From Patescibacteria group bacterium (GTDB lineage Bacteria > Patescibacteriota > Patescibacteriia > WFTA01 > S139-112), in NCBI GenBank assembly GCA_015485695.1, contig WFTB01000043.1, positions 1 through 33,830 on the forward strand: DNA of 33,830 nt, given 5' to 3'. This document shows positions 6,772 through 18,024 of this stretch, piece after piece (positions within the stretch are counted from its first letter, which is position 1; every line of letters starts with the position of its first letter). The translations under genes were made by a program, and so were the position numbers. The notes beneath the pieces are model-generated. The model made no database searches. It was not told the DNA's origin and saw only the letters and a program-made list of their open reading frames with translations.

Positions 6772-7827
6772 ATGAGATTTGGAGTATTTCAACAATATTT
6801 GTTTATAATTCTGCTATTATCGGTTAGTTTTGTGTTCTTATGGCTCATATTGCCGTTTTTGCAACCGATTTTTTGGGCAATAGTTCTTGCAACTTTGTTT
6901 TATCCGTTGCAAAAATTCTGGGAAAGAGCGACTCATGGTCTTGTTTCTGTAAGCGCATTGCTTACAATCGTTTCCATATCGCTTTTGGTGTTTGTTCCGA
7001 TATATTTTTTGGGAAGCGCGATGCTTCAAGAGACCATAAATGTTTATTATAAAGTGAGCGATTCCGGAGTTGATGTGAGTCAATTGGAAGACGGTCAAAT
7101 GTTAAAACCTGTTCTTCAGTATGTAGATCGTATCGGTTTGAGCGAAGAGAGGGTCATGGAACGGATTTCGGACGGAATGAGAAACGCAAGCGGTTATATA
7201 GCTTCACGCGCTTTGTCGATAGGGCAAAACGCGTTGCGTTTCGCATTGCAGACATTCGTCATGTTGTATATATTGTTTTATCTTCTAAGAAAGGGTCCTG
7301 ATATTTTGCACAAAATATTGCACATAATTCCATTGGGAGCTCGCAAAGAAAAGCGCCTCATAAAGAAATTCATAAGAACCTCAAGAGCGACGATTAAAGG
7401 GACACTTATCATAGGTATAATACAAGGAATTCTCGGCGGAATTTTGTTTTGGGCCGTCGGTATTGGCGGCGCACTGTTATGGGGGTCGGTTATGGCAGTA
7501 TTATCCATTATACCCGCGGTCGGTGCGGGTCTTATTTGGGGTCCGGCAGGTATTTTATTGATTGTCAGTGGCCAGGTAACAGAAGGAGTCATTGTTTTGT
7601 TCGCCGGGACTTTAATAATCGGCATGGTTGACAATGTGCTTCGCCCGCCACTTGTCGGAAAAGATACGCAAATGCCGGATGTCTTGGTCTTACTCTCCAC
7701 ATTAGGAGGTCTTGCTTTGTTTGGCGTTTCCGGATTTATTATAGGTCCGATAATTACATCTCTCTTTATTGCCATGTGGGAGATGTTTGAGGAGGAGCAC
7801 AGAGATGAATTGGTGAAGATGGGATAA
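6772..7827 (+). CDS. AI-2E family transporter (PurR-regulated permease-like membrane protein)
   Basis: 351 aa from the ATG at 6772. Members of PF01594 (TqsA, PerM, YhhT) are seven- to eight-helix membrane proteins that export autoinducer-2, sodium/protons or unknown solutes. Visible features: two N-terminal helices ('YLFIILLLSVSFVFLWLILPFL', 'IFWAIVLATLFYPL'), a third from 'VSVSALLTIVSISLLVFVPIYFLG', a soluble segment (about residues 90-150), then the conserved C-terminal membrane core with 'GTLIIGIIQGILGGILFWAVGI', 'LSIIPAVGAGLIWGPAGILLI' and 'DNVLRPPLVGK...MPDVLVLLSTLGGLALFGVSGFIIGPI', which are family signatures. The longer tracked start would add charged residues before the first helix and overlaps the promoter, so it was not used. 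The substrate cannot be told. Confidence 0.9.
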   Translation: MRFGVFQQYLFIILLLSVSFVFLWLILPFLQPIFWAIVLATLFYPLQKFWERATHGLVSVSALLTIVSISLLVFVPIYFLGSAMLQETINVYYKVSDSGVDVSQLEDGQMLKPVLQYVDRIGLSEERVMERISDGMRNASGYIASRALSIGQNALRFALQTFVMLYILFYLLRKGPDILHKILHIIPLGARKEKRLIKKFIRTSRATIKGTLIIGIIQGILGGILFWAVGIGGALLWGSVMAVLSIIPAVGAGLIWGPAGILLIVSGQVTEGVIVLFAGTLIIGMVDNVLRPPLVGKDTQMPDVLVLLSTLGGLALFGVSGFIIGPIITSLFIAMWEMFEEEHRDELVKMG

Positions 7828-7876
7828 GTTTTGTTATAATCGAAAAGCGAGAAATTCCGTGTTTTTTTATAATTAA

Positions 7877-7925
7877 AAAAAACACCAAGTAGCCATGTCG
7901 AATGAACGGTCTTGGCGCTTTTTTG
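7877..7925. terminator. Bidirectional terminator between convergent genes
   Basis: ACACCAAG and CTTGGCGC form the stem of a hairpin with a 20-nt loop; A-runs and T-runs on either side serve both the transporter gene (+) and the PsiE-like gene (-). Confidence 0.55.
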
Positions 7926-7933
7926 TATTCTCT

Positions 7934-8368
7934 TTAGAGAGTGAATGTTGTTGATTCTCGCTCTCTTTTATCTATGGTGGTCAGTTTCTCGTGAAACGCC
8001 AGATACAGAGCGAGACTTGCCAAGCTGAACACTCCGAACAGAATGTTGATGGGCAAGGATTGATTTTGATGCGCGAATATTATTTCTATTGCCGGAGCGA
8101 TAATCGATATTTCGACTATATATTTTATGCTTATGTGGTGCTTTCGGAAATAAAAAAGCAAAACCCTGTACGCTTTAACAAGAACTATAATCAAAGCTAT
8201 GCTATGTATAACATCAATGGCGCTCAAATTAAACAAATCTATAACCAGGTTATACACTTGCATCATCGTGAATACCAATAGAACTACAATCGCGACAAGA
8301 ATACACAAAGAAAAAAGGTAATTCACGATTCCCGTAATATATTTGGTTATCATTTGATGAATTTTCAT
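7934..8368 (-). CDS. PsiE-like integral membrane protein
   Basis: 144 aa with four hydrophobic segments: 'LFSLCILVAIVVLLVFTMMQVYNLV', 'VIHSIALIIVLVKAYRVLLFYF', 'IVEISIIAPAIEIIFA' and 'INILFGVFSLASLALYLAF'. The order 'helix - long acidic loop - helix - RVLLFYFRKHHISIKYIVEISIIA' agrees with the phosphate-starvation-inducible PsiE family (PF06146), where a conserved HHI-rich loop joins helices 2 and 3. Function in that family is not established. The start is the ATG at 8368, with no strong ribosome site. It is co-oriented with hsp20 but separated from it by the 116-bp inverted-repeat element, so an operon is doubtful. Confidence 0.65.
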   Translation of the reverse strand: MKIHQMITKYITGIVNYLFSLCILVAIVVLLVFTMMQVYNLVIDLFNLSAIDVIHSIALIIVLVKAYRVLLFYFRKHHISIKYIVEISIIAPAIEIIFAHQNQSLPINILFGVFSLASLALYLAFHEKLTTIDKRERESTTFTL

Positions 8369-8444
8369 ACTCGCATTGTCATTTGTTTGTTTTATATTTA
8401 TTTGTCTGAATTCCGATTTAGGCGCTTTAAAGCATCATGCATTA

Positions 8445-8560
8445 ACAACACCGACTCTGTGGATTCCGTCTTAATCGTGAATGGGCGGAGAGAAGGGGCA
8501 CCCAAACACATGAATAGACATGATGTGGTTACGAGACGGAATCCCCAGAGTCGGTGTTGT
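8445..8560. repeat. 116-bp element with 27-bp near-perfect terminal inverted repeats
   Basis: The left arm (8445-8471, beginning ACAACACCGACTCTG) and the right arm (8534-8560, ending CAGAGTCGGTGTTGT) are inverted copies matching at 26 of 27 positions. They enclose 62 nt that contain a smaller CACAT/ATGTG hairpin. It lies between the hsp20 stop and the PsiE-like start. No target-site duplication is visible. It may be a MITE-like element, a structured RNA or an oversized terminator for hsp20; see findings. Confidence 0.8.
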
Positions 8561-8611
8561 AAGGTTGATGTCTCCAAGTCGGGAAGCCAGAGCATAGATT
8601 GTGTGTATTTC

Positions 8612-9118
8612 CTATGTCTGAATATCCACACTTATTTTTTTCTTCTGTGCTTCTGGCTTTTTAGGTATATACAGCGATAGGGTACCGTTTTTGTTCGTGG
8701 CTTTTATATTGTCGATATCCAGTCCGCCCGGCAGATTGAAAATCCTGTTGAACGCGCCCGATTGTCTTTCGATTCGTATGTAGTTTTCATTCTTCTCTTT
8801 TTCTTCTTTTGTCGTTGTTCCGTTTACGACAAGAGTGTCCCGGTCTGCTTCTATGGTAATGTCCTTCGGGTCAACACCTGGAATATCCATTTTTATTTTA
8901 ATCGACTTGTCTGTTTCGGTTATGTCCGTCCTTGGCCACCATACTTCATTTGAGCGCGAATCGTCGGTCAAAGAATTATAACCATGTGCCGGAAGGTTGA
9001 ACCATGCGTCATCGAACATTCGATTCATTGCATCTTGAAGACTGGATATTGTTTGTGTGAATGGCGATATTGAAGTTGTATTTGCCGACTCTCTTCGTTT
9101 TGTCGTAGGTAGTTTCAT
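8612..9118 (-). CDS. Small heat-shock protein, Hsp20/alpha-crystallin family
   Basis: 168 aa. An ATP-independent chaperone that holds unfolding proteins in oligomers in the cytoplasm. The alpha-crystallin domain spans about residues 60-160: 'WWPRTDITETDKSIKIKMDIPGVDPKDITIEADRDTLVVNG', 'RSGAF-like QSGAFNRIFNLPGGLD' and the signature 'ATNKNGTLSLYIPK'. The C-terminal tail has no obvious I-x-I motif apart from 'ISVDI'. The start is well fixed: AGGAGGTGA lies 6 nt before the ATG (9125-9133), by far the strongest Shine-Dalgarno in the window, suggesting high translation on induction. No CIRCE lies upstream, but another inverted repeat does (9148-9212). Confidence 0.95.
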   Translation of the reverse strand: MKLPTTKRRESANTTSISPFTQTISSLQDAMNRMFDDAWFNLPAHGYNSLTDDSRSNEVWWPRTDITETDKSIKIKMDIPGVDPKDITIEADRDTLVVNGTTTKEEKEKNENYIRIERQSGAFNRIFNLPGGLDIDNIKATNKNGTLSLYIPKKPEAQKKKISVDIQT

Positions 9119-9147
9119 ATAGTCTCACCTCCTTTCTTTGAAAATCT

Positions 9148-9212
9148 CTGTTAGTTTGATTTCGACCTTTATCATCTGATATAACGCAAACAAAGTTTTA
9201 TGTAACTAACAG
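9148..9212. promoter_or_regulatory. Operator-like inverted repeat upstream of hsp20
   Basis: CTGTTAGTT (9148-9156) and AACTAACAG (9204-9212) are perfect 9-bp inverted arms 47 nt apart, framing the region where the hsp20 promoter must lie. This differs from CIRCE, so hsp20 may be under a separate regulator or DNA looping. Confidence 0.35.
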
Positions 9213-10077
9213 GATTGAATTGTTCTTGTATTTTAGTAACCGTATTTTCGCGACGTGATTTAAAGTATTTTCACGAACGCTCTTCCTTCTCTCTGGCTTC
9301 CTCGCTTGGAGACACCGGAATTTTAAACCTCAAGATTATGACCGGTGTCCCGTCTTTCTCGGTTTTTCATATGTTTGAAGTTTTATTTCGCGTCACATAA
9401 AATGTTTCTCTCTTCGATAAGTGCCCCGCGGACGGTCGTACTTTTTGCACGGCTCGCCCGAACTCGATCGTCGATGTACCGTCAGCGCGTAAGTCGTGAC
9501 GCCATATCTCACGCGCTCCGTGTACATTCGAGATCTTATAAGGGTCTTTTTCGAAGGAGCAACGTTAAAAGGCCCTGTTTGTAAAATAACATCGATTTTG
9601 AATAATTGTTAATATATCAAGTTTCCAATGGCGAATGTTTTTCACGTACAGACCCTTGTTTTGTTATAAAATCTTATTTAGCGATTATAGCTCTCGGTTC
9701 AGGAGGTTTCGCATACCGGATTGATACCGGCATGCCTCTGTCCACGCTCGTCGCGTGCACAGTTTATCGCTTTTCGGTTATTGTTGAATTGTTTTGTATG
9801 AGCAATGTATTCATCGGTTCTATGGCTCTTGTTTTGAGAGTTGGGCTAAATATTATTCTCCCTAAAGGCGTACCATCTGAGCCACTTTAAATTGCTCGAA
9901 CAGTATCGCATACGGGTTTTGTTAATCATCTTCACACAAGAGCGACCTTTGGGTTTTATCCTCTCTCACTATATTAAACACGCAAATCCAAAAAAGGTTT
10001 CATTTGTCGTTTCCATCATTTTTATTTTTCCCGAAAGCGTTTGTTTTTTCGTCTATTGGTTCTTGGCGCGCTCTAAA
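9213..10077. other. Long stretch without a supported gene
   Basis: About 865 nt between hsp20 and the sigma-factor gene. The four plus-strand ORFs of the track here have poor protein character and no ribosome sites. On the minus strand only short ORFs occur, for example 'MINKTRMRYCSSNLKWLRWYAFRENNI' near 9850-9930. Several inverted repeats are visible (GACACCGG/CCGGTGTC near 9310-9350; GACGGT/ACCGTC near 9430-9483), so structured RNA or element remnants are possible. Confidence 0.4.
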
Positions 10078-17891: not shown

Positions 17892-17940
17892 CCGCCAAAA
17901 TAAAAACTCCATAACAATTATGGAGTTTTTATTTTGGCGG
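17892..17940. terminator. 23-bp perfect palindrome that enters the tRNA-Ser 3' end
   Basis: CCGCCAAAATAAAAACTCC and its inverse flank a 3-nt loop, with 23 paired bases. It is a strong terminator for tRNA-Ser on the minus strand, but its right arm contains the last bases and CCA of the tRNA. Confidence 0.8.
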
Positions 17941-18024
17941 AGAGGGGGGGATTCGAACCCCCGATGCCCGTGAAGACATACCGCCTTTCCAAGGCGGCGC
18001 ACTCGGCCACTATGCGACCTCTCC
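17935..18024 (-). tRNA. tRNA-Ser(GGA), CCA encoded
   Basis: On the minus strand: acceptor GGAGAGG pairing with CCTCTCC, D arm 'GTGGCCGAGTGC', anticodon stem CCGCC/GGCGG with loop TTGGAAA (anticodon GGA), a long variable arm (about 16 nt, typical of class II tRNAs), T arm GGGGG-TTCGAATC-CCCCC, discriminator G and encoded CCA. 90 nt. Confidence 0.96.

Follow-up and report, generated by a model that had tools for sequence, protein, structure and literature searches.

RNase III is the enzyme that cuts the long stems of rRNA and of intercistronic regions. When a strong stem-loop is placed in the slrA 3' UTR of Bacillus subtilis, it blocks PNPase, and a decay intermediate ends at the stem (PMC9040804). 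Cyanobacteria are Rho-less, and many or most of their 3' ends are unlike canonical terminators and lack strong structure (PMC13289151). A literature search for small RNAs of CPR bacteria and for hsp20 intercistronic stems found nothing on point. Here, we describe a long inverted repeat next to an hsp20 gene in a stretch of 33,830 nucleotides from a Patescibacteria group bacterium (contig C43, hereafter the window). The genome comprises 983,626 bases in 47 contigs and is 99.5% complete.

The locus shares features with four known systems. As in the exonuclease-blocking stem-loops of 3' UTRs and intercistronic regions exemplified by slrA (PMC9040804), a strong stem stands past a stop codon and between genes, a U-tract is not needed, and PNPase is encoded in the genome of the window. 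The stem is longer, however (27 bp, with a 62-nt loop), and any effect on RNA is putative. The precursor stalks of rRNA and tRNA that are processed by RNase III, such as the 5S stalk of the same genome, likewise have arms of about 27 bp around a long interior, whereas the interior of the present element is no recognised RNA and folds weakly. Intrinsic (Rho-independent) terminators share the position of a hairpin after a gene, and a counterpart hairpin in a related genome has a U-rich tail; the element differs from them in its large loop and in having no U-tract on either strand. MITE and REP elements share the small size and the terminal inverted repeats, but the element is present in one copy, with no relatives and no target duplication.

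The 116-bp element lies between hsp20 and a PsiE-like gene, both on the minus strand, where the earlier note had placed it. On that strand, 51 nt separate it from the stop codon of hsp20 upstream and 76 nt from the start codon of the PsiE-like gene downstream. It is a stable stem directly downstream of a coding gene and between co-directional genes. In 7800–9400, a scan for consensus signals found neither a terminator nor a minus-strand promoter. A second, weaker hairpin spans the hsp20 stop codon, where the last hsp20 codons (AAGCCAGAAGCACAGA, coding strand) pair with the 3' UTR (TCTATGCTCTGGCTT). Coordinates are collected in the table.

Table. Features of the hsp20/PsiE-like locus and RNA stalks of comparable size in the same genome. 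Positions without a locus label are those of the window.
Feature	Position	Strand	Details
Left arm	8445..8471		ACAACACCGACTCTGTGGATTCCGTCT; from inverted-repeat search and genome scan
Interior	8472..8533		62 nt; two hairpins, both weak; significance absent on + and marginal on -
Right arm	8534..8560		AGACGGAATCCCCAGAGTCGGTGTTGT; pairs with left arm at 26/27
hsp20 / alpha-crystallin (PF00011)	8612..9118	-	168 aa; precedes the element in minus-strand reading
PsiE-domain membrane protein	7934..8368	-	144 aa; PF06146 at 24.3 bits, barely above cut-off; downstream of the element
Second, weaker hairpin over hsp20 stop codon	8584..8660 (about)	-	z -4.6 on -, z -4.5 on +
5S rRNA precursor stalk	L049 5578-5719		27-bp arms
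tRNA-enclosing stem	L050 3426-3591		21-bp arms; on the strand of the tRNA, pairing continues beyond them without a break (-85.5 kcal/mol)

The hairpin is real, extreme and far beyond chance. The inverted-repeat search reproduced the match of 26 of 27 bases reported earlier for the arms (96% complementary, 62 nt apart), and in a scan of the genome (~0.98 Mb, taken as stretches) the element at 8445-8560 was the top-scoring inverted repeat. It also ranked first among 742 gene-downstream regions. Base composition predicts about 1e-6 such arm pairs per genome, and in five Markov-1 genomes of equal size no pair exceeded 19 matched bp, compared with 26 in the element. Folding of 8430-8575 as RNA gave -65.8 kcal/mol on the plus strand (z -7.8) and -64.5 kcal/mol on the minus strand (z -7.5), an energy matched by 0 of 200 shuffles; these near-equal values discriminate neither the functional strand nor action at the level of RNA. 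The interior had been described as carrying its own hairpin, which is present but weak, with the 62 nt folded alone reaching z -0.3 on the plus strand and z -2.3 on the minus strand.

Near-perfect, long terminal inverted repeats and an overall length of 116 bp would suit a MITE or REP-type mobile or repetitive element, now a lone relic, as the earlier note had considered. The genome search for additional copies of the arms that it proposed was run by DNA search, by a pattern allowing three mismatches and by blastn with 7-base words, and returned the single known copy. Of the refuting conditions that the note had listed, single copy alone is thereby settled. Among a set of 57 related genomes, own genome included, no copy beyond its own was found; 381 genomes of the class yielded only chance-level matches (best E 0.026); the exact arm pattern was absent from GTDB contigs and IMG/VR; and blastn against plasmids and phages found no match to the element. 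We agree with the earlier observation that no target-site duplication is visible, as the flanks CATTA and AAGGT differ. With one copy, none in the collections searched and no flank duplication, the mobile-element reading is therefore unsupported; in addition, the arms still match at 26 of 27 bases, with no relatives. We regard a mobile origin as very unlikely, and a structured RNA fits better.

Action as a DNA site, either a segment inverted by a recombinase (inverton) or another cruciform-forming site, is extremely unlikely. The element is a short segment between inverted repeats, and the genome encodes three proteins with tyrosine-recombinase domains. Such domains are general, however, being found in all 14 named genomes of a control search, and no recombinase adjoins the site. 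The interior is without a promoter-like site, and the two flanking genes are not of the surface-structure type usual for invertons. An integron attC site was also considered and rejected, since the core motifs RYYYAAC and GTTRRRY were both absent from 8425-8580.

The size of the hairpin indeed exceeds that of an ordinary terminator, as had been claimed, but the U-tract that defines a terminator is missing: none lies within the stem or follows it on either side, the tails being TTAATGCATGATG on the minus strand and AAGGTTGATG on the plus strand. The RNA-binding domain of Rho (PF07497) was not detected in the 99.5%-complete genome, in a search that recovered it from 9 of the 14 named genomes used as controls. 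This result, together with the position directly after hsp20, could speak for an unusual intrinsic terminator of hsp20 without a canonical U-tract, or for a remnant that lost its U-tract. The equivalent hairpin of the related genome does carry a U-rich tail, and most transcript ends of the cyanobacteria, likewise without Rho, are unlike canonical terminators (PMC13289151). Those cyanobacterial ends are without strong structure, however, unlike the element; its 62-nt loop is long for a terminator, neither strand is U-rich after the stem, and hairpins with U-tracts occur elsewhere in the same genome. A terminator of this type is unlikely.

The other long hairpins of the genome provide a background for this comparison. 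Above a fixed score, 31 were found, 27 of them intergenic according to gene calls made as plain open reading frames of about ≥100 codons, which makes the counts rough. T/A tracts accompanied 19 of the 27, many of which lay between convergent genes and look like bidirectional intrinsic terminators; the remaining eight had no tract, again a rough count given the simple rule applied (TTTT in an arm or ≤10 nt from the stem). Seven of the eight tract-less hairpins stand between co-directional genes, an arrangement that the element shares. Within the window, a hairpin at 17892-17940, with 23 bp paired without mismatch around a 3-nt loop and with A/T tracts, directly adjoins a tRNA (17938-18024, minus strand) and looks like a bidirectional terminator. 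Two further tract-less hairpins were recorded. At L065 5389-5511 (G000:C29:5389-5511), an orphan rod-like hairpin with 25-nt arms, a 73-nt interior and no U-tract lies between a beta-lactamase-fold gene and ruvB and has no above-chance Rfam match. The hairpin at L083 8834-8903 (G000:C2:28634-28703) has 19-nt arms and follows a subtilase gene. Its fold is clearly better on the strand of the genes (-57 kcal/mol, against -46 on the other), a bias that suggests a role in RNA.

Comparison within the family covers one genome, that of the nearest relative, G001. There, a long hairpin (z -6.5) of unrelated sequence with a U-rich tail stands directly after the best match to hsp20 (37-38% identical), and the gene after that hairpin differs from the PsiE-like gene of the window. 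The parallel to the element is suggestive; given its U-rich tail, the G001 hairpin could also be a plain terminator. A survey of other hsp20 genes of the class did not show a long 3' hairpin as a general rule. A query with the window's hsp20 against GTDB yielded no more than three loci, all of them distant (31-33% identity), IMG/VR yielded no hsp20 or PsiE loci, and the PsiE-like protein had no match among 56 relatives. No orthologous sequence of the element was found for an analysis of covariation.

The 5S rRNA stalk and the tRNA-enclosing stem show that this genome does use RNA stalks of such size. This raises the alternative that the element is a stand-alone small non-coding RNA, a 62-nt core freed from an RNase III stalk, with the order of the host genes incidental. 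Its architecture, with 27-bp arms, is the same as that of the 5S rRNA locus, release from such a stalk also seems to apply to the 5S rRNA and to one tRNA of this genome, RNase III is present, and the orphan rod at L065 is comparable. The core itself, however, folds no better than shuffles on the plus strand and slightly better on the minus strand, and sequence conservation is absent. The locus also shows no consensus promoter close upstream and no terminator around it, and no Rfam family matched in either mode (best chance match E 7). We consider a stand-alone small RNA rather unlikely. Signal recognition particle RNA found no support as the identity of the hairpin. As a separate observation, the small SRP RNA model RF00169 gave no match at E≤0.001 in 38 genomes of the class (G000 and 37 others), although it matched in 11 of 14 control genomes; judged by this small model only, the SRP RNA of the class is either very divergent or missed.

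The reading that we prefer, to which we give about an even chance, is that the element acts in RNA as a stem at the 3' end of the hsp20 message or between the two cistrons, serving as an exonuclease barrier, an RNase III site or both. A structured RNA made from the hsp20 transcript had been the second suggestion of the earlier note, and the context favours it: the gene order, the presence of RNase III and PNPase, the lack of detectable Rho, the 5S rRNA and tRNA stalks and the hairpin of G001. The extreme strength of the stem, its freedom from U-tracts and the further hairpin over the hsp20 stop codon speak for the same reading, and the slrA stem-loop (PMC9040804) is published support for the barrier step. 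Against it stand the class survey, in which a long 3' hairpin was no general rule, the U-rich tail and low hsp20 identity of G001, and the near-equal folding on the two strands. The RNase III gene was identified at E 1e-42 and a PNPase gene was also found, so the genome combines a long double-stranded stem of 27 bp with the enzyme that would cut it. We infer the transcription of the element, its cleavage and the stabilisation of the message as follows. The stem of about 27 bp in the hsp20/PsiE-like spacer would be read mainly within the minus-strand hsp20 transcript, and read-through RNA would form a long double-stranded stem. RNase III may then cleave this stem and so separate the hsp20 and PsiE-like cistrons. 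In addition or instead, 3' exonucleases of the PNPase type may stall at it, which would leave a defined, stable hsp20 3' end.

Most likely, the element is a new example of a type of RNA structure already known, a single strong hairpin whose explanation is ordinary. It is decidedly unlikely that it represents something new, namely a small RNA of this reduced-genome lineage that is released from an RNase III stalk beside hsp20, or Rho-less 3'-end formation at long stems free of U-tracts, of which the element would be the strongest case and the hairpins at L065 5389-5511 and L083 8834-8903 further ones. If the preferred reading is true, the locus would offer a concrete and testable case of how a small genome in which Rho is undetected ends or separates its messages, here that of a heat-shock gene, and the other long hairpins without U-tracts between co-directional genes would be candidates for the same role.
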